From Vreelandella neptunia (lineage in GTDB: Bacteria; Pseudomonadota; Gammaproteobacteria; Pseudomonadales; Halomonadaceae), in the NCBI RefSeq assembly GCF_000712975.1, contig NZ_JHQL01000006.1, positions 124,001 through 188,000 of the forward strand: a stretch of 64,000 bases of DNA. Direction: 5' to 3'. Each line of letters starts with the position of its first letter. The stretch's first letter is position 1. A program made the translations under genes and the position numbers. Below, piece after piece: positions 9,149 to 54,905 of this stretch. Under the pieces are notes generated by a model, which was given only the letters and a program-made list of their open reading frames with translations, had not been told where the DNA came from and made no database searches.

Positions 9149-9306
9149 ATCACCTTATTTATCCCTTACTTATGAATATCAACATCTAAAATACTTCCTA
9201 AGCTTTTATTTCTAAATAGATGATTATTTACAGAAGCACTGCCGATGCGCAAGCTCTAACCGCTCTGCATTGATTTATAAACACCTATTCAGGATAAGGA
9301 CTTACG

Positions 9307-10113: not shown

Positions 10114-10119
10114 TTACTT

Positions 10120-11376: not shown

Positions 11377-11386
11377 GTGAGCAACC

Positions 11387-38073: not shown

Positions 38074-38927
38074 GGGGCCACCTCGTTTTCAAATAGCAGC
38101 CGATGAATGGTTTGGGTGCGCGCTTTGGTCGCTTCACTGCCCAAGCTGTGCAGGCTATCGTCAGCGCAGCCTAGCTCAGCGCGTACCCGGCCTGGATGGG
38201 GTGAAAGCAGCAGTACCCGGTTACCTATTACCTGGGCTTCTTCAATAGAGTGGGTGACAAACAGCAGCGTAAAGCCTTCTTGCTCCCACAACGCCAGCAA
38301 CTCTTCCTGCATTTTGCGCCGGGTGAGCGCATCGAGTGCGGCAAAGGGTTCATCCATCAGCAATACCCGTGGCCGCATGGCCAGCGCACGGGCGATGGCC
38401 ACACGCTGCTTCATGCCACCGGAAAGCGTATGTGGATAGGCATCCGCAAAACGCCCCAGCCCAACCTTTTCTAGCGTTTCTAACGCACGCACCTCTGCCG
38501 CTTTGCGCCCCAAGGTGCGCGAAGCCACCAGCGGGAACATGACGTTCTGCTTGACGGTTTTCCAGGGGGGCAGTTGATCAAACTCTTGAAACACCACGAT
38601 GCGGTCGGGCCCTGGGCCATGAATGGTGTTGCCATCCAGACGAATGCCGCCTTCTGCGGGGGTTAAAAACCCGGCGATGGCTTTGAGCAGCGTGGACTTG
38701 CCACAACCGGATGGCCCCAGTAGTACAAACCGATCCCCTTCCTGCACGTTAAAGCTCACTTGCTGGGTCGCTTTCACGACATGTTGGCGAGTCCGGTATT
38801 CAAGGGTAACGTTGTCTACTGCCAGCCTGGGAGTTGCTGCTGCGGATGACGTATTTGTCGGTGAATAAGCCTCGCGATCCAGCGAGGCCTCACCCAGCAC
38901 ATGGCGATTACGAAGGGCTAGTGACAT
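38070..38927 (-). CDS. tauB: TauB-like ABC transporter ATPase
   Basis: ATPase of 285 residues with a 30-residue N-terminal extension. Walker A GPSGCGKST, QLPPWKTVKQNV (Q-loop), signature LSGGMKQR, Walker B VLLMDEPFAALDA and VTHSIEEA are intact. Its start overlaps the stop of the upstream receptor gene by one base and its stop overlaps the PLP-enzyme start (ATGA), so it is translationally coupled on both sides. Confidence 0.9.
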   Translation of the reverse strand: MSLALRNRHVLGEASLDREAYSPTNTSSAAATPRLAVDNVTLEYRTRQHVVKATQQVSFNVQEGDRFVLLGPSGCGKSTLLKAIAGFLTPAEGGIRLDGNTIHGPGPDRIVVFQEFDQLPPWKTVKQNVMFPLVASRTLGRKAAEVRALETLEKVGLGRFADAYPHTLSGGMKQRVAIARALAMRPRVLLMDEPFAALDALTRRKMQEELLALWEQEGFTLLFVTHSIEEAQVIGNRVLLLSPHPGRVRAELGCADDSLHSLGSEATKARTQTIHRLLFENEVAP

Positions 38928-39949
38928 TAGCTTCCCTCCCAGGCATGGATATCTTCAAAGAAGTAGTCCTGCCATGAAGTGGGCTCATTCTGAATAGCGC
39001 CAACGTCAAACAGAAACTCTACCAACGGGAAAGTGTTGTTCGGCACCAGAGAGAAGCTTACTTGTTCGTCAGTAATAATCGACTCCAAGAAATCGATATC
39101 TAACTGCGTGCCTGTCACTCGTTTGTAGATATTAGCGGCTTCCCGCGGGTCTTCTTCTATTACCGCTCTGGCCTCATCCAGTGCATCCAGGAACGCAGCA
39201 TAGATGTCAGGGTTTTTATTGCGAAAATCTTCGGTGGCGTAAAGCACCGTCGGAGATACAGGGCCGCCTAGAATTTCGTAGGAGTCGGTAATTTTGTGAA
39301 TGCCCTCTTGCTGCAAGGCCTGGTATTGAAAAGGGATGGATGAAAAGTGTGTATTAATCTCGGTGCCGCCGCTGATGAGCGCCGCCGTGGCATCTGGGTG
39401 AGGCAGTGCAACGGTATTGCCCTCTAACCGATCAAACTGATCCTGCCCAAAAGTATCGGCGACCGCCTTTTGCAAGAAACGTGACTGAACAGATACACCG
39501 ACTGCAGGCACGGCAATACGGTCATTGTCATCAATATCTTCTAACGTCTGAATATCGGGGTTATTGGTGATCAAAAAATTAGGGAACTCGCCTAGGGAAG
39601 CGATGCCTTTCACATTCAAGTTGCCATGAGTGCGATCCCACACCGTTAACAGCGGCCCCACCCCAGCCCCGGCAATATCGATACTGTTAGAGAGCAGCGC
39701 ATCATTCACGGCCGCCCCGCCTGAAAGCTGCAACCACTCCACATCGATATCCACACCGCGCTCGGCACCGTGCTTTTCAATCAGGCCCTGGTCACGGGCA
39801 ACGTGGAGCAGTAGATAGGTGATGCCAAACTGTTCGGCGATACGCAATTGTTCTGCCGCTTGAGCGGGGCTTGCACTTGCCAGCGACACCGCCAACAGCG
39901 TGGCTAAACCAGAGGCAGTAACAGATTTACTAATGAGAGTTCGAGACAT
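38927..39949 (-). CDS. tauA: TauA-like periplasmic binding protein (copy 1)
   Basis: Receptor of 340 residues with Sec signal peptide ending SPAQAAEQ. Motifs: LRIAEQFGITYLLLHVARDQ, DAATALISGG-type loop (PHPDATAALISGGTEINTHF) and VLYATEDFRNKNPDIYAAFL. Related to copy 2 at 34843-35862. GGAGC precedes the ATG at 39949. First gene of the leftward operon, divergent from tauD; taurine or another sulfonate is the likely ligand. Confidence 0.87.
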   Translation of the reverse strand: MSRTLISKSVTASGLATLLAVSLASASPAQAAEQLRIAEQFGITYLLLHVARDQGLIEKHGAERGVDIDVEWLQLSGGAAVNDALLSNSIDIAGAGVGPLLTVWDRTHGNLNVKGIASLGEFPNFLITNNPDIQTLEDIDDNDRIAVPAVGVSVQSRFLQKAVADTFGQDQFDRLEGNTVALPHPDATAALISGGTEINTHFSSIPFQYQALQQEGIHKITDSYEILGGPVSPTVLYATEDFRNKNPDIYAAFLDALDEARAVIEEDPREAANIYKRVTGTQLDIDFLESIITDEQVSFSLVPNNTFPLVEFLFDVGAIQNEPTSWQDYFFEDIHAWEGS

Positions 39950-40167
39950 AACGGTGCTCCTGAGCATTAAATGTCAGGCCACCTTATGGCGCTCCGATAT
40001 TACTCAGAAGTGAGTTTTCGAGAAGTCTTTATCAGCGAATAACTGAAATACTTATTCACTTTATGCTGACATCTAAATCATAAAAAGGGCGGTTATTTAA
40101 ATTATTTGGGTTCATGACCTGATGCTTCGATAGTGGGTTCACACTCCATTTAAAAAGAGCAACACAC
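39950..40167. promoter_or_regulatory. Divergent promoter region tauA / tauD
   Basis: 218 bases between the divergent tauA-like and tauD starts. The middle (about 40025-40110) is AT-rich and must carry promoters for both sides. A LysR-type CysB/Cbl-like regulator would be expected for such genes from known systems; no specific site is claimed. Confidence 0.5.
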
Positions 40168-41118
40168 ATGACACAATTACAACGCTCACAGAGCACTCTT
40201 CGTGTACGCCCTTTAAGCGGTCATATCGGTGCCGAAATTGAAGGGTTAGATCTCGCCAGCCTGGTTCTCGATAATCGGGATAACGAAGGTTTTGCCACGC
40301 TTAAGTCGCTATTTCTGCAGTACCAGGTAGTTATTTTGCGTAATCAAACTCTCACGCGGGATCAGCATATTGCACTGGGCAAACGCTTTGGCGACCTCCA
40401 CGTTCACCCTATGGCGAAAGGCCCTGAGGGCTACCCGGAAATTTTTCCCATTGAGGCCGATGCCAACTCGTCTAACGACCCGAAAGCTATTCGCAGCGGT
40501 AAGCGTGCGGTTAATGGCGGCCACTGGCACTCGGATGTTTCTTGCGATGTAGAGCCACCGCTGGGAAGTTTGCTGTACCTACGCGATGTGCCTGAATATG
40601 GCGGCGATACCCTGTTCAGCAGCGGTTATGCCGCGTATGAAGCACTTTCCCCCGCCTTGCAATCGCTGCTTGAAGGCTTAACCGCCGTTCACTCCGGCGA
40701 AGCTACTTATCGCCTCCATTACGGTCATCAAGCGGCTAAAGATCGTAGTCAATTTGGCTTCAAGAACGGCGCGGACTACCCTGAGGCGGTGCATCCTGTG
40801 GTGCGCACTCACCCTGAAACCGGGCGCAAAAGCCTGTTTGTCAATCGCGGTTTTACTCGGGAGATTGTTGAGCTTTCCCACACAGAGAGTCAGGCGCTGC
40901 TGGAGTTTCTCTATCGCCATCAGGAAACGCCAGAGTTTACCGTGCGCCTAAATTGGACACCCAACAGCCTGGCTATTTGGGATAACCGCTGCACCCAGCA
41001 CCGGGCCATTTTCGATTACTCCGGGCAGGCACGGCGGGGCGAGCGTGTCACGGTTAAAGGCGACCGCCCATTTTTTACCAAGCCTGAGAACAGTGTAGAA
41101 TGGGGGTTAGTGGGGTAG
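40168..41118 (+). CDS. tauD: Taurine/sulfonate 2-oxoglutarate dioxygenase
   Basis: Fe(II)/2OG dioxygenase that hydroxylates the C-S carbon of taurine so that it breaks into aminoacetaldehyde and sulfite. 316 residues. Marks: VRPLSGHIGAEIEGLDL at the N-terminus, iron ligands H121 and D123 in GGHWHSDVSC, the distal His in NRCTQHRAIFDY and the 2OG-binding Arg in RRGERVTVKGDRPF. Slightly longer than E. coli TauD (283), mainly in the 95-115 loop. Divergent from the importer operon. Confidence 0.9.
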   Translation: MTQLQRSQSTLRVRPLSGHIGAEIEGLDLASLVLDNRDNEGFATLKSLFLQYQVVILRNQTLTRDQHIALGKRFGDLHVHPMAKGPEGYPEIFPIEADANSSNDPKAIRSGKRAVNGGHWHSDVSCDVEPPLGSLLYLRDVPEYGGDTLFSSGYAAYEALSPALQSLLEGLTAVHSGEATYRLHYGHQAAKDRSQFGFKNGADYPEAVHPVVRTHPETGRKSLFVNRGFTREIVELSHTESQALLEFLYRHQETPEFTVRLNWTPNSLAIWDNRCTQHRAIFDYSGQARRGERVTVKGDRPFFTKPENSVEWGLVG

Positions 41119-41130
41119 TAACAGACAGAG

Positions 41131-41150
41131 TCACCTAAGACGGTAGGTGA
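41131..41150 (+). terminator. Hairpin after tauD
   Basis: Stem TCACCTA/TAGGTGA with loop AGACGG, 12 bases after the tauD stop. No T-run, so weak as an intrinsic terminator. Confidence 0.45.
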
Positions 41151-41789
41151 ATAGTCAACTTATCGCCTATTAAGAGTGCTATCCATGACATTTTTCACTC
41201 TTCTTTACCCAATTTAAAATCAGTGGTTAGTAAAACTAGGTAGGCTTTTTTAATTAAGCTTATATTTATACTAATGTGCGGGCCGACACCGAAGGACTTC
41301 GATAGCTGTTGCGTAAGGGTTACACCTATCATAAAACTGGGGTCATCCTACTCGGCCTTCTACCAAAGCCAACTGTTAACTTACACTGACACAAAAATAA
41401 CAAATAGAGGCCGAAGAAAAGCTCAAAAATCATCTCATGGCCACTGTCGACCAGCTCAATCGAGAGTTAGTACGAGTGACTATACAGCTAGGATTGCTAC
41501 GAACAGGCAATGCCTGGGCATTTACCGGACTCCTCGGCACGATACCACTCGATGTGAAGCACTGTCGCTTGTACGCTCATCACGCGCACTCAAGTCATCG
41601 TTTCTAAATTAGAAAATAGCGCTAAAACCTGCGTCTATTTAGCCTTTTGCGCATATGTAGTAGCTGATAACTTATTTTTAAGCACATATGGTACCAAACA
41701 AGCAAAAAGCGGCAGTGCATCCTACCGCAAAAAATTAATTATTATTAGAAACACCTAAATCTTTCGGTCCCAAAGTATTGAGGAACAAC
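41151..41789. other. Non-coding stretch at the left edge of the accessory island
   Basis: About 640 bases with no convincing gene. A 56-codon open frame (41437-41607, + strand, MATVDQLNRELVRVTIQLGL...) reads like natural protein, with stops in frame before it, so it may be a decayed gene remnant. The stretch 41607-41760 is AT-rich. No intact tRNA gene was found here, although the right end of the island has a tRNA 3' fragment. Confidence 0.5.
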
Positions 41790-42671
41790 ATGCCCAAAGA
41801 ACAAATGAAAACGCATTTTCAGTACCCAAAGAATCTCATCATTAAAGTCGTTTCATTAGAAGATGCTATAAAAATTCAGTATGCCAATGGTCTTGTATGC
41901 ACACCTGAAAACCTCGAAAAAACTGATATAAGAGATTTCACTTATCATTTACAAGGGATTTTATCAAACTACATCGAAGCATCAATACCAGATAACAGCA
42001 TCAGTATCGAAAATACATTTTTCATAGCAACAGAAGGAGAAAACCAGAACAAATATATCGGCATGCTATTTTTAAGAAACCAGCCTCACCAAGAAAAATT
42101 AACACGAAAACTCGCCCGAATAGCTTACGAAATAACGCATTCCGTCATCACACAAAAAGACATTTTAAGCATCAACTATATCAATCATAAATCACCTGAA
42201 GATGAAGAATTTATTAAAGAACACTCTGAAAAATTCATTAATAAAAAAAATGCACGACCTATTAAGCATCCGTTTACCGTATCACCTGAAATAGATAACA
42301 AAAAACAGCCAAAAGTGGAAATCCTAGTTAGCGGTCAGTATTGTGCACCAACGTTTGCAACACTTAAACCGACGCCAGTGAAGGGTTATGCTGTACCAGC
42401 AGGATATGATGAACACAGCAATACAATCTCTCTTTATAGTATCGATTCAACTAATAAAGTTTCAAGCACACCTTTTATGCTCTCCTCCAGTCATGCTGAC
42501 CATATCATGACATTAGCTTCTGCAAAAGTTAATAACCACATCTTATACTACACCGGTGAACGTTTGGAAAACCCTAAAGGCCCCACTAAACAAAAGTCAT
42601 ATGTATTGTCTACTCTTTCCATTGCGAGCGAAGACAATCCTTACAAAAACTTTCAGCTGCAATCTAGCTAG
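41790..42671 (+). CDS. Unrecognised AT-rich island gene
   Basis: 293 residues from the ATG at 41790, which has GAGGAA 4 bases upstream. Family not recognised. No signal peptide or membrane segment is visible; the protein is hydrophilic, rich in Lys, Asn, Ile and Ser. Base composition is clearly more AT-rich than the sulfur cluster, a sign of transfer. It converges with the giant recombinase gene, with 7 bases between the stops. The absence of any strand partner suggests it is a cargo gene. Confidence 0.7.
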   Translation: MPKEQMKTHFQYPKNLIIKVVSLEDAIKIQYANGLVCTPENLEKTDIRDFTYHLQGILSNYIEASIPDNSISIENTFFIATEGENQNKYIGMLFLRNQPHQEKLTRKLARIAYEITHSVITQKDILSINYINHKSPEDEEFIKEHSEKFINKKNARPIKHPFTVSPEIDNKKQPKVEILVSGQYCAPTFATLKPTPVKGYAVPAGYDEHSNTISLYSIDSTNKVSSTPFMLSSSHADHIMTLASAKVNNHILYYTGERLENPKGPTKQKSYVLSTLSIASEDNPYKNFQLQSS

Positions 42672-42678
42672 CGTTAAA

Positions 42679-45600
42679 CTACTTTTTATTCATATACAAA
42701 TAAGTGGCAGTCACTATGTAAGCGACTGCCAACTCATACCGGCTTCTAACAATATTGTGTTCATTTTTACCTAGTAGCAGCCCGGCATATTGCTGATACT
42801 TCATCTTTCTACCACCCTTTACAACTTCAAATATATCTAGCTGAACACTCGTATCACTTATCTCTTTCAACCCATACGAGTGCAGCATGCGCTTTACGTC
42901 ATCGCTGCAGTTTTTTCCAGCGATGACATAGTTGGATGGGGACACTTTAAATGCTTTGATAGTAAGAGCGATAACTGCCACGTGCCTCGCTTCACTCATC
43001 AGTAGATGCCGGTGCCGTCCAACCTGGCAAGCTAACTCACTGAGTTCTAGTGCCCCATTCGTCGTTAAGATTTCACCATCAATTTTTTTAGCATGCTCAA
43101 GCAGGCGATCCCATGCAGCGTCGCTGATAATGCGCAGTAGGCCTAAGGGGTACTCTTGCGATGTTACCCATTGGTCTTTTCCCCGAATTTTGAAGCGCAT
43201 ATTTTTTTCAGCGTCCTTAATAACACCTTCAAGGATAGCAGCATGTACCGGGGACAACCCCAACGCCTCACTCGCTCGTCGCACGTTCTGCCTTAGCGCG
43301 CCTAGTCGCAACGCTTTCATCAGTAAATGCGGTGTTGGTTCGTTAAACAAAGAAAGCTCTTGAGGTACCGCAGAAGCCGGCGTGTAAAGTTTAAAATCCA
43401 GCGGTTGTAGGGCTTCTTTGAGAATGCTGCTATTTGTCCCTTTAACAGGCGTCAGCTCATCCGCCCATTCTAGAATCAAATGATGATAGTTCAGCAGCCC
43501 TGTTGATGGCTGCCGGTGGCCCATCAAACGCGCCAAACCCATCATCAAGCGCCGTGAACAATGATGTTGTTGTCCCATCACCATCTGACGAAGATGAGCG
43601 TGATCTACATGCTGAATTATTTTTGTAGCCACAGGCGTACTTAACTGCAGCAGAGAGGCCGCCACTATATTGTAAAACGCATGGCGGGCGTGATGTAGTG
43701 ATAGTGATGAGCTGCCACTCACGTGACGCAATGCATCTATCTCAGCAGCACTGATGGCTGAAGCACTGAGCGCTATTTCGACGCTACCCTTACGCATCTC
43801 ACCGAGGAGTGGCGTGGCTGCTTCCCCGCCCAACAGTGCATCATGACGGTTAAAGACGGCATTGATAGTGCGTTGCTCTATTGCGTCGAGAGAAAACAAA
43901 AGCGGTACGGCGCGGCGAGAGGCCTCGCTTTTGAGCGTTCGATAACGATTATTCCGAACCAGCACCCAACTGTAGCCATGAGATGTACACCAATCTCGCC
44001 GGAGCAATCCCCTCGCTTCATCAAGTCGTAATCCAAAGCGATACGCACATAGCAATACAAACTGAAGTAAACAGGCAATATCGGAGTCTCGTTGGGTTGT
44101 CCCTATCTGCTTCAGTGTCTCAAGGTACTCCCGTTCTGAGAGTATTTCAGCACGCACGTGACGCCCTTGCTCTGCGACGGGCAGCTCATCCCAATCAGGC
44201 TCTTCAACACCAAGAGAGGCAGCTACGCGGTGAAAAGAGCGCAGGCGATGGCTAAAATAGCTCATATCGCTTAGCTGGTTTTCTTGGTAATCAATCAACC
44301 CTGCATAAAAAGCAGTGACCTCTTCACTACCGAGCGTCATCAAATCGACACCGTACGCCAGTTCCTCAAATAGCTTACGCAACGTCCCCCAGTAGCGATG
44401 AATGCTACTGCTTTCGAACGGCTTAAAGCGCTTTCCCGCTTTTCCCTTGCCCCTTCGGATAACCGCCGCGATCCAGATGACCAACAGCATGATGGCGCTA
44501 CTAACCTTACCATTTCGCTGTGTGACCAGTTGCTCCAGTGATTTTGCCGTTATTTTAGCCTGCGCCTTGGTGTAGCCATCCAAGATTTGCTTCACCTCTT
44601 TAAAAAGAAGTACCGCCTGTTGCTGCAGCTCGTGTTTATCGCCATTAGCTCGTAATAGCGCTGGCAACGCTGTCGAGAGCTCCAAATCCTCAGTGTTGAC
44701 TGCTGAAGGTGGGAATATCAGCGATTTGCCGTGCACCATACGAATGTGCGCTTGCATAGGGAGGCTGGTGGCCACTATCCGCCCTGCTAACGCGCCAGCC
44801 ACTACGCCCGGTAATCTCAGAAGATTGGCTTGATCGACAATAGCGGCCGCCTGCCTAAGTATCTGCTGGATCGTTATACACTCTTGACTCTCACAGCACT
44901 GAATCAACGCCTCAGGCAAAGGCGGCGCTTGTTTTGGGATCGTCCAAGTATCGTCGAGCGCTTTGGTAGATGTTAGGCGTTGGCCGTAAGTTAGTAGTGA
45001 TGCCACATGATATGACACTGTGTGGCGCTGCACGGGGGCTTGCCAGCTGGTGCTATTTAACTGTTCGCTATACTCCAAGTAATAGGTTTTACGGTGATAT
45101 AACAGCCGAAAGTTGTCCCCTTGGCACACATCCTTCAGCAGGCGCATATAACAAATACGTTTTTCAATACACAAAAGTAACGCACCGAGCGCTAATGCCT
45201 GGCGTTTAGAACAGTGGGTTCGGGTGGCGTATGGACGCATAGTCGATGCCCAATGCGTCAATTGAGTCATTAATGCAGAGTAAGCGGGAGCGTGCTCATG
45301 AATCAGCGTTTTTTCCGGCAACATCGGAATGTAACGGCGCTGAAACGCATGGCGATGCGGTGACTCATGCCGCTCTAGCAAGCGTGTCAGCACACTAAAC
45401 CGTAAGGCTGCAGAGGGGTAAGGCGTTTTTCCCTGCTGAAGCAACATTTGCCGCCCCAGTTGCTTAATCTCATCAGCGGACAGCGTGGCCATATCACGCC
45501 CTTTTAGAAACAACTCAATATCGTTAAGCGCTGCTCTGATAGCGTTTCGTGTTGCCAAGCGACGATTTTTTTCGCGTAGCCGCTGCCCAAATGCCCGGGA

Positions 45601-48051
45601 AGATGTCGCTGAATCACGCAAGCTGCTCACGGCAGCTACTGGCAAGGAGGCAGGTGGTGCTAGCAAATCAAACGATAGTCGCTCAAAGAGTTCGTTGACC
45701 TCTTTACGGTAAGCCTTCCAATCGTCCATCCAACACCGGGCCGAGGTGTCGCCATAGGTGGCGACACTTTTTTCCGCATGCCCCAGCCAACCATCCACAA
45801 CTTCGTTATCGACGCCTAATAAGGGTAATTGCTGTGCTAGTCGGTGACGGAAAAGATTGGGGGGTAGTGGCCAGTCGAATAAGGTGGCACCTGGTAGATC
45901 AGTCGCTGGCATAGAGTGCCAATTGAGCGACTCATCAAGTAAAAAGAACAGGGGCTGTTCAGCCTTCGCCGGCAATTCTAATAGCGTGTTTATTCGCGAT
46001 GATATTACAGGATGGGTGCTCAACAAATGCTCGGCGAGACGCTGGAGGTACGAGAGGTAAGCCTCGACAAACTTAATCGCCTTATCGGCCAATGGCACCA
46101 TACGACCATTCCGCACACCGCTGCCTTCCGCTTTATCATTAATAAACACAGCAGGGAGGTCGTGATTAAAAAACCGTGTGCTTTCAAAAGGGTCTTTAAG
46201 GTACCTACTCCCCGTTGCCGCATAGAGAGCCATGACACAGTAGCTGGTCCACTGATTATGTAGACGCACCAGATCATTGCCGTTTAACGTTTCTTTGAGC
46301 TGCTGAGTCGCTTCGCTAATCGCCCTATTGAGCTGGGCTTCAAGCGGTACCAACAAGCTGCCTTGATTCGTCGATTGTAACGTTTCGGCGCCGTGGAACT
46401 GATAAGGTAAAGCAAGTCCTTGCTCAATCGCCTCGATATCCCAGCTAGCATAGCTACACGCACCAGGTAAGGCGCTATTGGGGTGAGCCGTTAACATCCT
46501 CGCGAAATGGTGATTGCCTGACGCATCAAAAACAGATTGGCCCCATACCTCAGCCAGCTTACCGCTGGTAACGCGTGGGCATGCAATGCTCATGCGTTCA
46601 TTGAACCACACCTCAATTTTTTGGGCTGGCGATACGCTCTGCCACAGTTCTGCCAGTGACGCTTGGGTGGTTAATGGCTGACTACTGATTACAAGCGTCT
46701 CTCTTACTTCGGGGATTAGCCCAATACACTGCTTTTCGTGAACAGCTGCCACATAAGCTTGTGCGGCAATATTAGGTTTCCAGGCATTACGTCGACGCGG
46801 AGACAGGCGATGCATTTGCTTGAGGTTTGATGCTAAAGACCATTCCCCATGGGTCTCGTCTCCAATGCCCATGGCAAGTACTTGGCTGAGCGAGCGGGAA
46901 AAACGTATCGCGAGCCACACTAACGCTCCGCCCAATCGCTCTCGCTGATCAGTATGCTTGAGCTGCTGAGCAATCCATTGCTCAATCAGTAAACGCTCAG
47001 GCGGCAAAAGCTTGGAACAGCTCCACGGCAGGTAATGGGACGTTTCCGCTTGTTGTTGATAAAAGCTACGCCCTGTCAGCTCTTGTTGAGCCTGCGTATC
47101 CGTTGCATCAACCGGCAGTAAGTAAATCGCCTCATCAGCCTCTTCATCTAGCCAACCATCTGGGCTTGGACATACTTCTATGAACTGTTCAGATGACTCA
47201 TCAAGGCTTATTAACTGTGTCGGCTCAGAAATGGGTGCAGATAACTCAGCATGCACAAAAGGCTGCGGAGGGAAATCGCGCTGAGTGGTGAAAGGTTTTG
47301 TATCACCACTGGCAATCTCGATGATGGCATTGATGAATGCGGTGCCACTTTTACCAAATGTATGGCTTTGCTTGTACTGCTTAGCAGCCAAAGACAACGC
47401 GTCAGTAAAACGTTCAAATGTCCAAGTATCAGGTGTCAGGTAACGTCGGGCACGGCGCAAGACATCATCAACGAGTTGCCACTGCGCTTGATAGCGGTCT
47501 GCAATCAAAAAGCGCGCTGCGGTACTGATATTTCGATCCGCTAAGCAATGCTCTTTCACTACCCGATTCGCCGCCTGCGCGACCAACCACAAGCGTAGCG
47601 CACGCCTTAACACGTATTCAGATGATTGCTCCGCCCCAGGCAGCGGGTAAGTAATTAACGTTATAAGAAACGTTTGTTCTTTAAGGCTGCCTTTATATGT
47701 TTGTTTCGTTTTTGTAGCGTCTCCTGCATGAAGAAATGCAGGATACTGACGGTTGATCAAGGAGTCTTGACGAATGGCTTTCGCCAGATCATCTAGCGAG
47801 GCAAGGGTGGGATTTTGCCGCCATCGAGTCAGAATGTCTTTTGATTCAGGATGGTGAAATTCATTAACCAGGTTGCCAATCGCGACGACCTGGTGATCCA
47901 ATCCAAGCGTCCAAAAAGCCAGTTCCAGAGCATCACTAAGATCATGCTGGGCAGCCCATTGGCATATATCGCGATAGGGGTGGCCAAAGCGCGCTATTTG
48001 CTTACCAGTGCTTATATCGTCTCTTTGGACCGCGAACGTATGCTCTACCAT
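42679..48051 (-). CDS. Giant protein with two tyrosine-recombinase domains
   Basis: Single open frame of 1790 residues. The C-terminal domain (about 1300-1530) has the full tyrosine-recombinase set: R1342 in FGLRLDEARGL, K1374 in RTLKSEASRRAVPL, H1453/R1456 in LHHARHAF, H1512 in LMGHRQPST and Y1522 in LLNYHH. A second, central domain (about 590-790) has R616 in YAATGSRYLKDP, K640 in INDKAEGSGVRNGRMVPL, R735 in NLFRHRLAQQL (Asn in place of the first His), H758 in GWLGHAEKS and Y766 in VATYGDTS. Residues 1-590, 800-1240 and 1540-1790 are unrecognised; the latter two may include DNA-binding arms. Ordinary integrases have 300-450 residues and one catalytic domain. Probably the mobility enzyme of the island. 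Its promoter lies in an AT-rich stretch just upstream of 48051. Confidence 0.85.
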   Translation of the reverse strand: MVEHTFAVQRDDISTGKQIARFGHPYRDICQWAAQHDLSDALELAFWTLGLDHQVVAIGNLVNEFHHPESKDILTRWRQNPTLASLDDLAKAIRQDSLINRQYPAFLHAGDATKTKQTYKGSLKEQTFLITLITYPLPGAEQSSEYVLRRALRLWLVAQAANRVVKEHCLADRNISTAARFLIADRYQAQWQLVDDVLRRARRYLTPDTWTFERFTDALSLAAKQYKQSHTFGKSGTAFINAIIEIASGDTKPFTTQRDFPPQPFVHAELSAPISEPTQLISLDESSEQFIEVCPSPDGWLDEEADEAIYLLPVDATDTQAQQELTGRSFYQQQAETSHYLPWSCSKLLPPERLLIEQWIAQQLKHTDQRERLGGALVWLAIRFSRSLSQVLAMGIGDETHGEWSLASNLKQMHRLSPRRRNAWKPNIAAQAYVAAVHEKQCIGLIPEVRETLVISSQPLTTQASLAELWQSVSPAQKIEVWFNERMSIACPRVTSGKLAEVWGQSVFDASGNHHFARMLTAHPNSALPGACSYASWDIEAIEQGLALPYQFHGAETLQSTNQGSLLVPLEAQLNRAISEATQQLKETLNGNDLVRLHNQWTSYCVMALYAATGSRYLKDPFESTRFFNHDLPAVFINDKAEGSGVRNGRMVPLADKAIKFVEAYLSYLQRLAEHLLSTHPVISSRINTLLELPAKAEQPLFFLLDESLNWHSMPATDLPGATLFDWPLPPNLFRHRLAQQLPLLGVDNEVVDGWLGHAEKSVATYGDTSARCWMDDWKAYRKEVNELFERLSFDLLAPPASLPVAAVSSLRDSATSSRAFGQRLREKNRRLATRNAIRAALNDIELFLKGRDMATLSADEIKQLGRQMLLQQGKTPYPSAALRFSVLTRLLERHESPHRHAFQRRYIPMLPEKTLIHEHAPAYSALMTQLTHWASTMRPYATRTHCSKRQALALGALLLCIEKRICYMRLLKDVCQGDNFRLLYHRKTYYLEYSEQLNSTSWQAPVQRHTVSYHVASLLTYGQRLTSTKALDDTWTIPKQAPPLPEALIQCCESQECITIQQILRQAAAIVDQANLLRLPGVVAGALAGRIVATSLPMQAHIRMVHGKSLIFPPSAVNTEDLELSTALPALLRANGDKHELQQQAVLLFKEVKQILDGYTKAQAKITAKSLEQLVTQRNGKVSSAIMLLVIWIAAVIRRGKGKAGKRFKPFESSSIHRYWGTLRKLFEELAYGVDLMTLGSEEVTAFYAGLIDYQENQLSDMSYFSHRLRSFHRVAASLGVEEPDWDELPVAEQGRHVRAEILSEREYLETLKQIGTTQRDSDIACLLQFVLLCAYRFGLRLDEARGLLRRDWCTSHGYSWVLVRNNRYRTLKSEASRRAVPLLFSLDAIEQRTINAVFNRHDALLGGEAATPLLGEMRKGSVEIALSASAISAAEIDALRHVSGSSSLSLHHARHAFYNIVAASLLQLSTPVATKIIQHVDHAHLRQMVMGQQHHCSRRLMMGLARLMGHRQPSTGLLNYHHLILEWADELTPVKGTNSSILKEALQPLDFKLYTPASAVPQELSLFNEPTPHLLMKALRLGALRQNVRRASEALGLSPVHAAILEGVIKDAEKNMRFKIRGKDQWVTSQEYPLGLLRIISDAAWDRLLEHAKKIDGEILTTNGALELSELACQVGRHRHLLMSEARHVAVIALTIKAFKVSPSNYVIAGKNCSDDVKRMLHSYGLKEISDTSVQLDIFEVVKGGRKMKYQQYAGLLLGKNEHNIVRSRYELAVAYIVTATYLYMNKK

Positions 48052-48649
48052 TACGACTTATTCATTCTTATATAGACAGTTACTATATATCTAAAAAACA
48101 TATAAATAATAGTGATAGCTACTAATATCTATTGATACCAAGCACTAGTAGCCAAAGTAGTCGCGCACCAGAGCTGTCACCCTGACATTTTTGATTATTC
48201 GTATGACTAGAGACGGTGTGGCCACCAGCCAAACAAATTCTGCCTTGCTAAACTTCGTGAACAGATGTTGCATGCCCAGGCAACATTTAACGTTATATGC
48301 ACGGCAGACCAGAGACTTCCTGAGTGGCGTGGTTCACAAGTGGTGGCAAAACATTTTTAGGGCATCAACTAGCGGTGCACCCAAATAGCTTTGGCCACTT
48401 TGAGGGAAACAGTTGCTTAACTCTAAGTAGGTATCGTGGGCAAAAGGCAACTATCACTGCTCACTGGTAATTGACGAGTTTGATGCCACAACCGTCCAAA
48501 GTGCACATGGGTCCAACAGGCGTTTCAGCACCCAAGCGCTAGGCAGCCTCAGAAGGTAGTCATCGGAATAGCCTATCCCATGCGAAGCCTATTTTGGGAT
48601 AGGGTTTAACACCCATAAATCAGCAGGGGCCCAGTTTCCGATAGAGAAG
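48052..48649. other. Non-coding stretch with inverted repeat
   Basis: About 600 bases. The first 80 are AT-rich with repeated TATATA-type words and probably hold the promoter of the giant recombinase gene. A 9-bp inverted repeat (CCTATCCCA at 48572-48580, TGGGATAGG at 48595-48603, 14-base loop) lies about 45 bases beyond the stop of the TIR gene and may be its transcript end. No protein-coding signal was seen between. Confidence 0.55.
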
Positions 48650-49609
48650 TTATCTTGCACGCTGAAGTGGCGCGATAACGATTTCCCAAAGCATTTCTGC
48701 TGCCCCTCCCTGAGATAGCTTCTGATGTTGACGCCCCTGGAAAGCCATTCCCATGCTCGTTAGGTAAAGGGCTTGGTCGTCTGCTTGCACCGAAAGAGCC
48801 TCGTTAAAGGAGTTACTGCTGAAAGAGTCACCACCCTGACTGTAATAGATCCCTGCTCCCATTTGCCCTCCAACATACACTGTCGCCGTCGCGACGCTCT
48901 CACCATCTTTGTAGATGGTCGCAAAAAACCGATTAGCATCAATTCGACGAAATACACCTTCGTAGCCTGGGTTCCGTGCTTGGAGCTCATTCAGAGAGTT
49001 TTCGAAAAAGCGCGCAATGTATTCAAAAGTGTCGATTTGGAAACGGTCTTTGTCCAGCTGAGTAAAGGTCTTAGCGACTCGAAGGTTGCTCGAACGCGGG
49101 CCGGCAACTACAGTCTGCTGGGTATGCATCAAAGCCCCAACATCCACGCGTTCGGCGCTTGATTGAGTGCTTCGCCACCTTTCAGCCGCTTTGCGAACCT
49201 CCTTCACGACCTGTAACAATGCTTCGTCCCTATCCGGCCAGAGAGTGACCGGCTTTCCATCCTGGGGGGTGCCAAGCAGTTTTCCAAATGGGGCGTGGTG
49301 CCAATCGCATGCTCGCAAAATCACTGGAATGACAATTGCCTCCTTAGCGTTGTGTCGCTCCATGGCACGCGCCATCTCTATGTTGTAGCAATAGTCGGAA
49401 GCAATGAAATCAGGACTCACTAACAGCAAAATTATCTCATCGCTGTTGATATGTTCATCAATGGCTGCGTCGATCTCCTGACCAGCATCAATTCTTCGAT
49501 CGTGCCAGCTGTCGATAACACCTTGACGCTTGAGCATCGCTAGCTGCTTTTCTAGCTGATCTCTCAGCACCTCGTCAGCGTGACAGTATGAGAAAAAAAC
49601 GTTTGGCAA
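48650..49609 (-). CDS. TIR-domain protein with unrecognised C-terminal domain
   Basis: 319 residues. Residues 1-140 form a bacterial TIR domain: VFFSYCHADEVLRDQLEKQL, DSWHDRRIDAGQEIDAAIDE, EIILLLVSPDFIASDYCYNI, then EMARAMERHNA. Glu 78 in the YCYNIEM stretch corresponds to the catalytic glutamate of TIR NAD-cleaving enzymes. Residues ~170-319 (IDTFEYIARFFENSLNELQA, FRRIDANRFFATIYKDGESV, GAGIYYSQGGDSFSSNSFNE) form a separate domain that I do not recognise; it may be the sensor. Such proteins commonly work in antiphage or abortive-infection systems. Confidence 0.83.
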   Translation of the reverse strand: MPNVFFSYCHADEVLRDQLEKQLAMLKRQGVIDSWHDRRIDAGQEIDAAIDEHINSDEIILLLVSPDFIASDYCYNIEMARAMERHNAKEAIVIPVILRACDWHHAPFGKLLGTPQDGKPVTLWPDRDEALLQVVKEVRKAAERWRSTQSSAERVDVGALMHTQQTVVAGPRSSNLRVAKTFTQLDKDRFQIDTFEYIARFFENSLNELQARNPGYEGVFRRIDANRFFATIYKDGESVATATVYVGGQMGAGIYYSQGGDSFSSNSFNEALSVQADDQALYLTSMGMAFQGRQHQKLSQGGAAEMLWEIVIAPLQRAR

Positions 49610-49921
49610 AATGAGTACTCCAAGCCTATAAGACCTGACTGATCTTACGACTTTTTCATCTCTTAAAGAAAAATTATATTTAGCATTTCGGCAAGAGGTT
49701 ATCCGTCCTATCTATGGCATGCACACAATTCGGCGCAAAGCAGCCAGTGATAATAAACGACCTATTTGCACTGTGAGACCCGGTTAGCGTTCATGATGGG
49801 AGCATTTGCGTTGATGCAGCAAGTGACGCATAGCACATACAATATGGTTATACCGCTCTACTTTTAAGTTGAAATTTTGTTCGAATCAGGCATATCCGAG
49901 CAGAGTGTTTATTTCATCATT
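49610..49921. other. Intergenic region between TIR and orphan genes
   Basis: 312 bases. Moderately AT-rich with no reading frame of note. It should contain the TIR gene promoter (leftward) and the 3' end of the 280-residue gene; no hairpin with T-run was identified. Confidence 0.5.
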
Positions 49922-50764
49922 TCATTTGCTGGCTGACGTCCAATTGGATGTCCTTCTACTGCGATCGCGTTCCTTCTGCCGGAAGCGCTTCACATAGTCG
50001 GCGGAGGCCATCTCGTCCACCCTTAGCTCCAGTGCGCAGTTAATCAAGGAGGCCATGGTATTGTCCGTGATCTTCAAGTCACTGGGCAGCCGCCCAAACA
50101 CCTGAGCACTGCTTTCTTCGATGGCAGCGAGGAAGGCCCTGAGAAAATCACCTTTTGACGATCTAGAGCTCTCCGTGGCCGCCTTGGTTAGCGGATCAGT
50201 AGCTTCAATATCTGCGTCGCTAGCATCCTGGGCTAGTTCGTCCATGAAGTCGCTTAGTGATGGCCAATATTTTAGGTCATATTGATAATGTAAGCGGCTA
50301 AGCTTATCCCCAATCTCCATTCCAAACAAAGGGTTGTGTTCAGAGGCTTCTTCGATTACTTCGCAGACATGATAATGGGTATTGCTGGCGAAGCCGGAAT
50401 GATTATGGAGCACGCTGCGCTCATCCAGCAGCGTCGAGAGTTCCATAGCTTTGTCCGCAATCTGCCGATTGACCTCAATGAGACGATATCGACTAGCACG
50501 GGCGGCCTTCATGTCTTCCGGTTTCCAAAATGCGGCTGTACTCAAAAGCTTGGCGAGAAATTCCTGCAGTGCATGAGGGTGATGGCCGAGCTTACGGTGC
50601 AGTTCCAGATAGGCGCTTTCCAGCTCGTGGCCTCTGTTCAACAGTCTATCAATCACTCTGTTCTCACTCGGCAAACACTGATGCTCCAAATTGTATTGTT
50701 TACCCTTTCGCAGAATGTCTTCGCAAACGGCTAGGGGAGAGGCTGGCGGCTTGAGGTGAGTCAT
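49922..50764 (-). CDS. Unrecognised 280-residue protein next to Gabija
   Basis: 280 residues, no signal peptide or membrane segment, mostly helical in composition and with a basic C-terminal tail (KRFRQKERDRSRRTSNW) that could touch nucleic acid. Family not recognised. It is transcribed divergently from gajA with 416 bases between starts and lies between the TIR gene and gajA. It could be an accessory or regulatory component of either defence module, or unrelated cargo. Confidence 0.7.
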   Translation of the reverse strand: MTHLKPPASPLAVCEDILRKGKQYNLEHQCLPSENRVIDRLLNRGHELESAYLELHRKLGHHPHALQEFLAKLLSTAAFWKPEDMKAARASRYRLIEVNRQIADKAMELSTLLDERSVLHNHSGFASNTHYHVCEVIEEASEHNPLFGMEIGDKLSRLHYQYDLKYWPSLSDFMDELAQDASDADIEATDPLTKAATESSRSSKGDFLRAFLAAIEESSAQVFGRLPSDLKITDNTMASLINCALELRVDEMASADYVKRFRQKERDRSRRTSNWTSASK

Positions 50765-51180
50765 GTGCTTATCTCCGTGAAGTTTGAAAGATAGCTTACC
50801 GGCCTTCTCTCAGGCTGTCGGTACCCGAAACCGTTTATTTCTAGTGAGCTTTAGGTACCTGTTGCCACAACCATATCTAATTTTAGTAAGCACTCTCAAG
50901 GCGTACAAAATATGGCAGGCTTGAGGCCACTGAGGCCTCCCACTAAACGCGAAGGTCTGAAACGATTTAAGGAAGGGCTAGCGGGATAAAATTTATTTAG
51001 GGAGCGAAAATAGCCCTTTTCCTCACCAGGGCTTGGGGTATCACATTGGTATAGAAGCATGCTATTGCTGGGGTAACCGCTTATGACCATTTCTGGGATG
51101 GGGCGCAGGTGATGTGTTGATTACACAGTCGTGATAACAATGGATTAATTAAAAACCGATCCACAGGGGGCGCTACATCA
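50765..51180. promoter_or_regulatory. Divergent upstream region of the Gabija operon
   Basis: 416 bases between the divergent 280-residue gene and gajA. It includes a short perfect hairpin near 50930 (GAGGCC-ACTGA-GGCCTC). The AT-rich TTAATTAAAAA stretch about 30 bases before gajA and the AT-rich stretch near 50985 are promoter candidates. No reading frame in it was judged real. Confidence 0.5.
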
Positions 51181-52926
51181 GTGTATCTAGCAAAACTGAA
51201 AATAACGAACTTCAGAAAATTGCAATCTGTTGACCTTGAGTTTCAGCCCGGGCTGAACGTCCTGGTCGGCTCTAATAACATTGGCAAGACCGCTATTGTT
51301 GATGCATTGCGCGCGCTACTTGCAGGATACGACGAGCCATACCCGCGCTTTGACAACGACGATATGCATCGACCAAAGGGCGGCGATGCGGCAGGTGACA
51401 TCCAATTTAAGTACGTCTTCCAGGATTTGGACGTAGACGACGAAGCCGACTTTCTGGCAGCACTGAAGCCGGACGAAGATGGCAGGTTTGAAGCTCACAT
51501 TAACATCCGTTATTCAGAAGCTGACAAGATTGGCAGGCTGCGAGTAAGGCGTTGGTGTGGAGACCATGAAGAGATAGGCCTGACCGCAGATATGATCGAG
51601 AACCTTCGCGGTGTCTACCTGCCACCTCTTAGAGATGCATCACAGGGTCTCAAGCCCAATCGCCATAGCAAGCTGGCTCGACTATTTCAGCTCCTAGCCG
51701 ATGATGAAGGTCGTGATGGAATTAATGAAGCACTTAAACTGCTCGATGAAGAGCTAAGGGGCCACGATCCCATTATTACCGCTCACTCGGCCATCACAAG
51801 TCGGCATGACACGATGCTAGGGTCTCAGCTAGCCCAAGTGTTGGATTTGGGATTGAGCGGAAGCGATTTTCAGAAGCTGGCATCACGCCTGTCGTTAGTG
51901 GTGGACGACTTCGAAATTGAACAGAACGGCCTTGGATTTAACAATCTGATTTACATGGCGGTGGTTCTCTGTGAGCTGGCCAGGAACGCTGACGCGAGTT
52001 ACCGAGGCCTGATCATTGAGGAGCCTGAGGCACACTTGCATCCGCAGTTGCAGGCGGTGTTGCTAGATTACCTGGAATCGATTCAAGATGGGGAGGGTGA
52101 GAAGCCCGTTCAGTTGTTTGTTTCTAGCCATTCCCCCAACTTCGCCAGCATTGCTAATCTCGACAGCCTCACCTGTCTGGTCGAAACAGCCACTGGCGTG
52201 GAGACTTTCTTCCCACGCACCATCCAATTCGAAAGGGGAAAAAGAGAAAAGCTCGAACGCTACCTTGATGTGACCCGTGCTGAGCTGTTTTTTGCCCGTC
52301 GTATCATCTTCGTTGAAGGCGCGGCCGAGTTGATGCTGGTCAATGTCCTCGCGGAAATGTGTGGCTATAACCTGCGCAAGCACGGCGTCAGCCTGATCAG
52401 TGTCGAAGGACTCAATTTTGACTCTTTTTTGCCTCTGTTTGGCGAGGAAGCCCTGAAAATTCCAGTATCCGTGATCACCGACGCGGATCCAGTAAGTGAA
52501 GCGGATGAAATCGGAGAAACGGTGGCTGTTTATCCCACGTTCGACGAGGAAATTAGGGTTTCAGACAATACCGCCAGGATGAAGAAAAACGAGGATTCCC
52601 TCGTTAAGGTTTTCTGCGGTCTCAAAACTCTCGAATATGATCTGGCGTTGGTTGACGTTAATCGCACCGCAATGCTGGCTGCACTTAGAAATATGCACCC
52701 GAGAATCGCGCAAGACCTCCAGACTAAGGTCGAAGAGGAAGAAGGCGATGCAGACAAAGCACGGACCCTATTCAGCGGCATGTTTGAGCGCAAACAAAAT
52801 AATGTGCAGAAGGGGCGCTTTGGCCAGTCACTTGCGCAAGTTATTGCCGAAGGCAACGCTTTTGTAGTGCCAGACTACATCCAGAATGCGATTTCTCATG
52901 CCTGTCAAACAGTGGAGGCCAAGTAG
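51181..52926 (+). CDS. gajA: Gabija nuclease GajA (OLD-family ATPase-Toprim)
   Basis: 581 residues, close to known GajA length (578). The ABC-type ATPase half has Walker A GSNNIGKT (30-37), the OLD-type NGLGFNNLIYMAVVL (249-263), Walker B GLIIEEPEAHLHP (276-288) and H-loop SSHSPN (315-320). The Toprim nuclease half has VEGAAE around 378-383 and VITDADP (431-437) for metal binding. In Gabija, GajA is a DNA-nicking nuclease held in check by nucleotides and released when phage infection depletes them. GTG start; the stop overlaps the gajB start by one base. Confidence 0.9.
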   Translation: MYLAKLKITNFRKLQSVDLEFQPGLNVLVGSNNIGKTAIVDALRALLAGYDEPYPRFDNDDMHRPKGGDAAGDIQFKYVFQDLDVDDEADFLAALKPDEDGRFEAHINIRYSEADKIGRLRVRRWCGDHEEIGLTADMIENLRGVYLPPLRDASQGLKPNRHSKLARLFQLLADDEGRDGINEALKLLDEELRGHDPIITAHSAITSRHDTMLGSQLAQVLDLGLSGSDFQKLASRLSLVVDDFEIEQNGLGFNNLIYMAVVLCELARNADASYRGLIIEEPEAHLHPQLQAVLLDYLESIQDGEGEKPVQLFVSSHSPNFASIANLDSLTCLVETATGVETFFPRTIQFERGKREKLERYLDVTRAELFFARRIIFVEGAAELMLVNVLAEMCGYNLRKHGVSLISVEGLNFDSFLPLFGEEALKIPVSVITDADPVSEADEIGETVAVYPTFDEEIRVSDNTARMKKNEDSLVKVFCGLKTLEYDLALVDVNRTAMLAALRNMHPRIAQDLQTKVEEEEGDADKARTLFSGMFERKQNNVQKGRFGQSLAQVIAEGNAFVVPDYIQNAISHACQTVEAK

Positions 52927-54635
52927 TGAACTACCCTTCCGAAGAGCAGACACAGGTTATAGATGCCTCAGTAGAGCCCTTGTCAGTAATTGCCTGTGCT
53001 GGCAGCGGCAAGACATTCACTGCCGTGCGACGTCTGGCCAATATTCGTCAAAAACTTGGTAATCATCGTGGTCGTGTGGCACTCCTGTCCTTCTCCAATG
53101 TCGCTGTAGATACTTTCCAAAAGGAATATCAAGATCTGGGGCTCAGCAGCAACGTCAACAACCGCGTGGACATAGATACGCTGGATACTTTCATCACCAT
53201 AAACGTGTTGCGCCCTCATGCCTATCGGACGATGGGCGCGCAACAGACGGCTTTCCTTGTGACCGGTGGAGAAGCATTTCTGAAAGGATTCACCTTTCAA
53301 ACGGATCCTTACCCGCGCGCTATCAATGAAATGCAGGTCGGTATTGACGCTGGAGGTGTCTACTTCTGCTACTCGGATATTAAAAGTGAAATGCACAGGC
53401 TCAATACTGCCCAAGCTGCAGACGTGGTGCATCGCCTTGGGCGGATCGGTGCCTACACACACAACCTCGGGCGTTACTGGTGCTATCGCACGTTAGCAGA
53501 TCAACCTGGGATTCTGCGTGCTCTGGTTCGCCGTTATCCGCATATCCTGATTGACGAGGCTCAGGATATCGGAACGGTTCATCAGGTCATCATCGAGCAG
53601 CTAGTGAGTGCTGGTTGTCAGGTCTCACTGATAGGTGATCCAAATCAGGGTATTTATGAATTTGCCAGTGCTGATGGGGCGTTCTTGTCAAAGTACTGGC
53701 AACGTGACGGCGTAAATAGCCTCGAATTGAAGAGAAACTTCCGGTCCGTGCCACCAATCCTTGATCTGGCCAACCATCTGGCCGGACGAACCGATGCCGC
53801 AGATAGGGAAGCGCCTGATACAGTCCATGGTCCCTTCTTTGTAGCTTACGGTAAGAATGACAGAGAGCAACTCATTGTTTCGTTTCAGAGAGCAGTGGAG
53901 GCCGCTGGCCTTAGGCTGGAGCGTTCGGCGGTACTCTGCCGCGGACGCAAACAGGCAGATAAACTGGCTGGCAACAAAGGGGCCCCAGGCTGGGGCATCG
54001 TCAAACGGTTTACACAGGCTGCAATTCTGCGCGAGCGTTTTAAAGACTATCAAGGTGCATTCAAGCTGGTGGCTATCGGTATCGTCAACCTGCTCGTTGA
54101 TGCTCCAAATGGGATGTTGGCTAAGCTCACATCCCAACGTGAGGATCAGGCGTTACGTCGGCTCATCTGGGCTTTTACTCGTAATCCTGATTCGGGACTG
54201 CCCGGTGTATCGCTCACAGGAAAAGCGCAGTGGCACCCCCTATTACTTAATAGAGTCAAAACTTTGCTGGCTCAAATTAATAAAGATTGTGGTCTGACGA
54301 GCGTTAATAAGCTTGGTAGCAAGCTCACTACAAGAGATTTGCCTGATGGACCGTTACTATCTGCCGCTGACCTGAATGGGAATAATGACCGACCCCGCAT
54401 TCGCGTTGACACAGTTCATCAGGCGAAGGGAGAAAGTCTGGATGCAGTGTTGTATTTGACAAATAAGGAACATGCCGAAGGCTTAATGAACGGCGTGGAT
54501 ACAGAGATTGGGCGTATTGGCTATGTTGCGGTAACCCGTGCCCGGAACCTGTTTTGGCTTGGTGTGCCAGCCAGTGCGTTAGTTGATTTACGGCCAGGAT
54601 TACTCGATCTTGGCTTTCAGGAAACTGAGGCATAA
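52926..54635 (+). CDS. gajB: Gabija helicase GajB (UvrD/Rep-like)
   Basis: Superfamily 1A helicase, 569 residues. Walker A ACAGSGKT (24-31 region), Walker B ILIDEAQD (207-214), LIGDPNQGIYEF (motif III), LKRNFRS (motif IV), VDTVHQAKGESLDAVLY (motif V) and GYVAVTRARN (motif VI) are all present. In Gabija, GajB binds GajA to form the complete defence complex. The start codon is a GTG overlapping the gajA stop, so production is coupled. Slightly longer than the Bacillus reference protein (494), with extra residues in the middle part. Confidence 0.9.
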   Translation: MNYPSEEQTQVIDASVEPLSVIACAGSGKTFTAVRRLANIRQKLGNHRGRVALLSFSNVAVDTFQKEYQDLGLSSNVNNRVDIDTLDTFITINVLRPHAYRTMGAQQTAFLVTGGEAFLKGFTFQTDPYPRAINEMQVGIDAGGVYFCYSDIKSEMHRLNTAQAADVVHRLGRIGAYTHNLGRYWCYRTLADQPGILRALVRRYPHILIDEAQDIGTVHQVIIEQLVSAGCQVSLIGDPNQGIYEFASADGAFLSKYWQRDGVNSLELKRNFRSVPPILDLANHLAGRTDAADREAPDTVHGPFFVAYGKNDREQLIVSFQRAVEAAGLRLERSAVLCRGRKQADKLAGNKGAPGWGIVKRFTQAAILRERFKDYQGAFKLVAIGIVNLLVDAPNGMLAKLTSQREDQALRRLIWAFTRNPDSGLPGVSLTGKAQWHPLLLNRVKTLLAQINKDCGLTSVNKLGSKLTTRDLPDGPLLSAADLNGNNDRPRIRVDTVHQAKGESLDAVLYLTNKEHAEGLMNGVDTEIGRIGYVAVTRARNLFWLGVPASALVDLRPGLLDLGFQETEA

Positions 54636-54835
54636 GGACATCTACGTTCGACCTATCTCATCAGCTTGACTGTGCCCTGTGATTGGCCCGAAGGTCACTT
54701 CCTTTCAAGGAATTTCCCCAAGTTTTGTGCCAACTATAAGCTCCCTCATGTGCTCTTAAATGACACTACCTCCACGAACGCAACCCAGAAAAAACCCTTC
54801 CGAATGATGATTTTAGAGCATTAAACGTAATTTTA

Positions 54836-54852
54836 GGACATATAATATGTCC
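54836..54852. repeat. Perfect palindrome beside the tRNA scar
   Basis: GGACATATAATATGTCC: 8-bp arms around a single central A. It lies 22 bases before the tRNA 3' fragment, exactly where an integrase arm or excision site would be expected, or it could be an operator. No copy was seen at the left end of the island. Confidence 0.7.
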
Positions 54853-54874
54853 CTATTTCATCAGTCTCATAACC

Positions 54875-54905
54875 GTCATCGGTTCAAATCCGGTCCCCGC
54901 TACCA
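54875..54905 (+). other. tRNA 3' fragment, probable attachment-site scar
   Basis: The 31 bases contain a T-arm (ATCGG-TTCAAAT-CCGGT, fully paired), the 3' acceptor strand CCCCGCT and a terminal ACCA. The 5' half of a tRNA (AGCGGGG expected) is absent in the preceding 80 bases. The preceding CTCATAACC resembles a Met-type (CAT) anticodon loop, but the spacing to the T-arm is too short for a functional tRNA. This is what integration into the 3' end of a tRNA gene leaves at the far side of an element. A strong terminator follows. Confidence 0.85.

Follow-up and report, generated by a model that had tools for sequence, protein, structure and literature searches.

The giant gene in the 64,000-nucleotide stretch of DNA from the marine bacterium Vreelandella neptunia analysed here (the window) encodes a tyrosine-recombinase (YR)-like chain that is, judged by sequence comparison, a fusion of two proteins, A and B, which are encoded by separate neighbouring genes elsewhere. 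We hold it to be slightly better than an even call that this chain is a permanent fusion of two large YR-type subunits of a multi-recombinase island mobility module. That two enzyme subunits encoded separately in other bacteria should be joined in one protein is surprising, and it is testable. The starting points are computed results, namely the fusion and its conservation, the folds of domains D4 and D2, the junctions at tRNA-fMet and the co-occurrence with an ordinary integrase. The features are collected in Table 1; G numbers denote genomes, G000 being the window's own, and L numbers denote loci.

Table 1. Features of the fused gene and its surroundings (window coordinates)
Feature	Position	Strand	Remarks
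Convergent partner gene	41778..42671	+	297 aa; no known family; relatives near fused gene
Fused A-B giant tyrosine-recombinase-like protein	42679..48051	-	1790 aa; ATG to stop, no internal stop
D4, residues 1296-1529	43465..44166	-	Canonical YR; R1342, K1374, H1453, R1456, H1512, Y1522
D3 (tentative), residues ~921-1107	44731..45291	-	Secondary structure of the model only
D2, residues 567-793	45673..46353	-	YR fold; R616, K640, N732, R735, H758, Y766
D1, residues 342-529	46465..47028	-	Probable YR/TopoIB-like fold; structure model; Y534 just beyond
Cargo: TIR-domain protein	48650..49609	-	Full-length match to PADLOC ThsB1 model, E 3e-158
Cargo: 280-aa protein	49922..50764	-	No significant family match
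Cargo: GajA, Gabija anti-phage system	51181..52926	+	PADLOC E 3e-296
Cargo: GajB, Gabija anti-phage system	52926..54635	+	PADLOC E 9.9e-258
Island terminus CTCATAACC	54866..54874	+	Identical to tRNA-fMet anticodon loop region
Displaced tRNA-fMet 3' half (distal junction)	54875..54905	+	Last 31 bases; same-species chromosome continues beyond

Conservation, origin and domains of the fused chain

The first-pass annotation had described a single intact chain with two sets of catalytic residues; the open frame was verified, and all twelve residues listed for D2 and D4 stand at the positions claimed. Library models matched the window protein weakly: PF00589 aligned with residues 1314-1483 (E 2.8e-5; 24.4 bits, below the cut-off of 27.1), and the XerD model and a PHROG integrase family reached E 4e-5 and 1.3e-5, respectively. 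PADLOC models gave no match to it, a sequence search of solved structures at E <= 1 gave no relative, and phage sequences held no match to the window protein or to one split A protein; a viral fold library search returned mostly integrases, given without aligned ranges. Two plasmid records were matched by the window protein and eight by one split A query, and the plasmid-borne relatives examined are annotated as integrase, site-specific integrase, tyrosine-type recombinase/integrase or hypothetical protein. As a separate observation, one split B query matched 223 plasmid records, 218 of them from Acinetobacter, and these Acinetobacter relatives (cf. L119, 7090-13027) carry an integrase annotation or none among the matches listed. 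Among the literature matches listed, from a search mostly outside subscription journals, no report of natural fused tandem tyrosine recombinases was found.

The window's own genome holds one copy of the fused gene. Within its family, A/B protein matches were detected in 33 of 275 genomes; by our own reading of the rows, 17 of these have the fused gene, whole or in part (15 genes or fragments plus two remnants, in G240 and G241), and in the other 16 the A and/or B part matched in separate frames. When one genome per species was scanned, 30 further fused loci were found, whose hosts on the gamma side are Vreelandella/Halomonas, Marinobacter, Marinospirillum, Neomelitea, Parathalassolituus and Motiliproteus, together with a few MAGs and betaproteobacteria. 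A single open frame of 1717-1979 aa is present in 23 of the 30, the remaining loci being truncated or cut by a contig end. The main alignment comprised the window protein and 25 relatives (26 rows; L056, L058, L076, L080 and L083 were omitted as truncated), and in all 26 rows R616/K640/N732/R735/H758 and R1342/K1374/H1453/R1456/H1512/Y1522 are identical, while Y766 is a tyrosine in 24, with histidine in L073 and phenylalanine in L082. Both residue sets were kept in all ten full-length copies of an earlier alignment. By these alignments, the family of the fused chain is stable to a degree beyond chance. The proposal that homologues keep both catalytic sets was borne out for the C-terminal set and for R616 and H758, which are present in all aligned rows, but only in part for Y766. 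A variant was seen in Marinospirillum (G137; L048, 6075-10966), in which a 1253-aa chain matches fused residues 569-897 and 1063-1419 and a separate 378-aa gene lies upstream.

In the split form, a small gene X is followed by A and then B. X spans 137-197 aa (13 examples), A 738-875 aa in 13 of 14 cases and 306 aa in one, and B 947-1149 aa (14 cases). Profile comparison, which took in ten of the 14 fetched split loci, aligned split A with residues 319-798 of the fused chain (hhalign 100%, E 3.5e-38) and split B with residues ~903-1714 (hhalign 100%, E 1.3e-46), with no cross-match between A and B. In an unrooted tree of 42 rows, in which some branches are long, all 26 fused rows fall on one side of one branch (support 100/99), which fits a single fusion. 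Two further ideas were rejected: that X lies inside the fused chain, by profile comparison, and that the convergent partner is X, by sequence comparison. An artefact, in which a sequencing error or misassembly joined two genes, might be suspected from the separation of A and B in many wider-family relatives and from G199, where the fused chain is broken into two ORFs; however, the long single frames and the grouping of the fused rows make such an origin scarcely credible, and the sequence evidence already refutes it.

Two YR-type domains in one chain, as had been suggested, are conserved in the fused relatives and YR-like in predicted fold. D4 has the R-K-H-R-H-Y set of a tyrosine recombinase on a YR fold, and the central domain D2, on whose folding the proposal had been staked beforehand, adopts the YR catalytic fold in the structure model. 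The region previously left unexplained probably holds at least one further YR-like fold in the model, D1; moreover, the helix/strand order of the tentative D3 resembles a degenerate YR fold in which no nucleophile was seen. Profile comparison of D1, D2 and D3 with one another, with D4 and with the island integrase gave nothing significant, and D4 alone matched the integrase (93%).

The tyrosines were counted over 25 of the 26 fused rows, one being short in the A half, and 14 split rows. Y534 is kept in all 25 fused and 12 split rows, with a tyrosine within one column in 13 of the 14 split proteins, while Y766 is a tyrosine in 23 fused rows and in a single split one, the other 13 split A proteins having W, F or L there. 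The box-II histidine of D2 is N in all rows. H523 is kept in 21 of 25 fused and 2 of 14 split rows and R386 in 20 and 11, respectively; since the box-III histidine is poorly kept in the split proteins, D1 is disfavoured as an ordinary centre. R616 and H758 speak for the second catalytic domain that had been postulated, but the substitution of Y766 makes a second cutting centre doubtful, and to speak of two full catalytic domains appears too strong. The tyrosine pattern also suggested a speculative and rather improbable arrangement, in which one chain would comprise three, perhaps four YR folds as a pre-assembled synapse, with D1 donating Y534 into the R-K-N-R-H pocket of D2 and the D2 tyrosine being dispensable. 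An active site shared between neighbouring subunits is known from FLP recombinase. Were this so, two chains would form a whole synapse, and the pattern of Y534 kept and Y766 mostly absent in split relatives leads to clear predictions.

The tRNA-fMet island and its junctions

The same-species genome G229, compared with the window from position 38500 onward, lacks 38500-54857 apart from short repeats, its matches resuming at 54858, and on its chromosome the left flank of the island is followed by an intact tRNA-fMet and then by the right flank. A further G229 difference of ~29 kb begins just beyond window position 55765. In the window's genome, the intact tRNA-fMet lies ~4.5 kb left of the window (G000 contig 6, 119412-119488) and is followed by a phage-type integrase gene (120284-121498), so that by coordinate subtraction the island measures ~59 kb and contains most of the window. 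Between terminus and fused gene lie the TIR gene, the gene for the 280-aa protein and the Gabija pair; a scan of six proteins revealed no ThsA. The tRNA-fMet gene thereby stands out as an insertion site for islands, in this case for one with Gabija and TIR genes. In V. alkaliphila the TIR gene is present and only the 3' end of gajB is found, joined directly, which looks like a deletion there. Also within the island, most of the window (positions 1-41118) is taken up by what appear to be sulfonate/taurine-type transport and oxidation genes, named by eye from their translations.

An intact tRNA with an integrase at one end and a copy of the tRNA 3' end at the other, which defines a tRNA-type genomic island, was found in full in G000, G225 (~97 kb), G238 (~51 kb), G282 (~27.5 kb) and G278 (~46 kb), the lengths again being coordinate subtractions, and the layout was followed up to the contig end in G275. 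G278 is the same genome as G138 (M. minutulum), in which 27 kb separate the fused gene from the junction and two stop codons interrupt the integrase match. G199 has the tRNA and the integrase, and its terminus, 6.5 kb from the fused gene, joins non-tRNA DNA. Apart from this, a Marinobacter contig that also bears a fused gene (G275 contig 10) has three consecutive, RIT-like integrase genes at 9215-11645.

The terminus GTTATGAG was found no more than 420 bp upstream in 15 of the 23 fused loci with upstream DNA, at a distance of exactly 117 bp from the adopted ORF start in 11 of them, and is absent within 420 bp in the other eight; in L069 the locus's own terminus is at -194, and a match at -341 belongs to a neighbouring intact tRNA. 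A tRNA-fMet 3' half is joined to it in 14 of the 15 loci, L067 being the exception (eight halves were recognised by blastn with the tRNA of the window genome and six by eye). The fused chain was hence located beside tRNA scars, as had been anticipated, with the displaced half just upstream in 14 of 23 loci. A wider gap, of 2.5 to 27 kb, separates gene and terminus in the window, V. alkaliphila, G199 and M. minutulum. In two of the eight loci without a near terminus, L082 and L084 (Hydrogenophaga), the gene seems, by eye, to adjoin another tRNA at its 3' end.

Measured against the 36 bases that follow the core in an intact tRNA, the junctions lack 0 bases in L059, L062 and L065; 5 in L061, L066, L069, L070, L072, L075, L078 and the window; 8 in L068; 16 in L060 and L071; 18 in L079; and 23 in L057, whose junction is 2.5 kb from the gene. 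The signature of the 5-base loss, CTCATAACCGTCRTYGGTTC, occurs in 9 of the 275 family genomes, all nine belonging to the 17 in which a fused gene or its remnant occurs (Fisher 1.1e-12, a value that ignores shared ancestry and overstates independence), and eight of these 17 do not show it. The 5-base form may stem from an attachment sequence that belongs to the element itself, exchange then taking place in the GTCATCG that comes next, or may have arisen by change after insertion. Tandem copies of the tRNA-fMet 3' end lie beside the junction in L057 (7003-7460) and in G225 (contig 1, 419355-419656), suggestive of several accumulated insertions or repeats. The displaced tRNA-fMet half by the fused gene of G280 (V. 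titanicae; contig 23, 30982-38427) is followed after ~1.4 kb by a second phage-type integrase gene, perhaps reflecting tandem islands.

A loose single-linkage cluster of proteins of ~260-305 aa that includes the convergent partner has a member close to the fused gene in 17 of 27 loci, including the window, and in 12 of the 27 the partner gene directly follows the fused gene in convergent orientation. Similarity of the window partner to other members ranges from E 6e-177 down to not significant, the distant members being weak matches.

Proposed role of the fused protein and co-inheritance with the integrase

Relatives of the island integrase (E <= 1e-90) occur in 36 of the 275 family genomes and A/B proteins in 33, with both in 31 (Fisher 2.2e-33, in which shared ancestry is ignored and independence overstated). 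A/B proteins without the integrase family were found in G068 and G250, and the reverse in G096, G136, G142, G200 and G264. Context was fetched for 30 of the 48 integrase matches: integrases of at least 64% identity adjoin tRNA-fMet in 19 of 21 cases, those of at most 58% identity in 0 of 9. Fifteen of the 21 genomes with the close class carry a fused gene or remnant, and in G212, G025 and G094 split genes lie 31-58 kb away; in G218 the integrase is at tRNA-fMet and the only A/B matches, which are split, are some 660 kb off, and the incomplete genomes G264 and G096 have a close-class integrase without A/B matches. In seven fetched regions (L031-L033, L037-L039, L049) an integrase ORF of 423-436 aa runs towards the split genes in convergent orientation. 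Among the 12 genomes reached via fused loci, seven (G277, G278, G280, G282-G285) carry an intact tRNA-fMet with a PF00589 integrase no more than ~2 kb away; the fused gene is in some cases on another contig.

On the reading that we favour, the A half (residues ~1-830) and the B half (residues ~830-1790) would together serve islands that sit in the initiator tRNA gene, with the ordinary integrase beside the intact tRNA, the cargo between, and the A-B gene in the direction of the opposite end, in many cases at a distance of exactly 117 bp from the displaced 3' half of the tRNA, so that in a circular form both recombinase genes would flank the attachment site. D4 of B would cut and rejoin DNA via Y1522, while A would grip the partner half-site with its phosphate-binding R-K-N-R-H centre and would have at most a modified nucleophile. 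The fusion would fix the A:B ratio, and the A-B unit, alone or together with the ordinary integrase, would form an asymmetric synapse that leads to integration or excision of the island. We infer the action of A-B on the island ends, the cutting by D4 and the helper role of A from the split-profile matches, the grouping of the 26 fused rows, the invariance of D4 in all of them, the spacing of the terminus, the co-occurrence with CTCATAACCGTCRTYGGTTC and with the integrase, and the empty site in G229. Several findings count against a mobility module. The ordinary integrase alone could explain insertion at the tRNA, it occurs without a nearby A-B gene in G218, G264 and G096, and in M. minutulum its match crosses stop codons. 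Furthermore, the fused gene is distant from the terminus in four cases and eight of 23 loci have no near terminus, the loss of 0 to 23 nt after the core is not what exchange at one fixed core would lead one to expect, and Y766 is missing in most split relatives. The suggestion of an undescribed mobility system goes too far if taken to mean a stand-alone one, as an ordinary integrase is encoded at the tRNA of the resolved islands as well.

These observations lend some weight to a different and less probable account, in which the islands are ordinary tRNA-fMet islands moved solely by the phage-type integrase and the fused protein is a long-standing distal passenger that, for example, protects, stabilises or regulates. 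In its favour, the close-class integrase adjoins intact tRNA-fMet in 19 of the 21 loci that were fetched, G212 has a tRNA-fMet fragment, in natural undeleted sequence, 3.8 kb from split X-A-B, and the tRNA-fMet integrase of G218 without nearby A-B raised this account slightly and lowered the module reading slightly. However, a passenger would not readily explain why the exact distance between gene and terminus is kept in 11 of the 15 loci with a terminus, or why the catalytic residues of D4 are invariant over much divergence. Rather improbable, in our view, is that fused gene, partner and terminus constitute a separate element inserting at the tRNA-fMet anticodon loop or at existing island ends. 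The identity of the 9-nt terminus with the anticodon loop region and the two copies, L067 and G199, whose terminus joins non-tRNA DNA are consistent with such an element, but blastn (E <= 0.05) detected no additional tRNA-fMet fragment between the two ends of the island in G000 or G238, and the integrase is inherited together with the fused gene.

Comparison with known multi-recombinase systems

For the fused chain as part of a mobility module, the closest parallels are GInts (ginABCD), whose movement needs several YR-type proteins, one with an incomplete catalytic set, and a small protein, and which show site-specific insertion, short imperfect repeats and cargo (PMC5385486). In GInts all four genes proved essential, three separate YR genes form one operon with ginD at one end, and the sites described so far are protein genes such as ssb (PMC5385486). 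In contrast, here two large subunits are joined, the integrase is at the far end, the site is tRNA-fMet and a convergent partner is often present; three separate YR genes with ginD were not found, a distinction drawn from gene arrangement. The strand-biased circularizing integrative elements (SEs; IntA-Tfp-IntB-Srap) likewise combine two YRs with Tfp, a YR-fold protein without catalytic motif (PMC10214605). Circles ceased to form in SEs when intA, intB or the small gene was knocked out; complementation succeeded only with the small gene, and attempts to knock out tfp yielded no mutant (PMC10214605). Tfp is said to be without the RHRY motif and the SE genes are separate (PMC10214605), whereas the A half of the fused chain keeps R-K-N-R-H; the intA-tfp-intB-srap arrangement is not present here, as judged by gene order.

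Several YR proteins also act together in RIT elements (ritABC), which comprise three adjacent overlapping genes in an element of ~3.5 kb (PMC3414803); by contrast, one fused gene in islands of tens of kb was found here. Gamma-mobile-trio islands resemble the present ones in being mobile islands with anti-phage cargo that includes Gabija (PMC12715929). A gamma-mobile-trio identity was rejected: the window protein, one fused relative, one split trio and the L048 pair gave no NCBIfam Gmt match, and the GmtY model (NCBIfam NF040693) had no match above the cut-off in three genomes, only sub-cut-off matches at other places. Common tRNA islands with a phage-type (P4-type) integrase share the integrase beside the intact tRNA and the displaced tRNA 3' end at the far junction, but the giant A-B protein is additional here. 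Taken together, the best reading of these comparisons is that the A-B module would be like GInts and SEs in logic, and its natural 1:1 fusion may offer a one-gene handle on why GInts, SEs and RITs need several recombinases for four-strand exchange.
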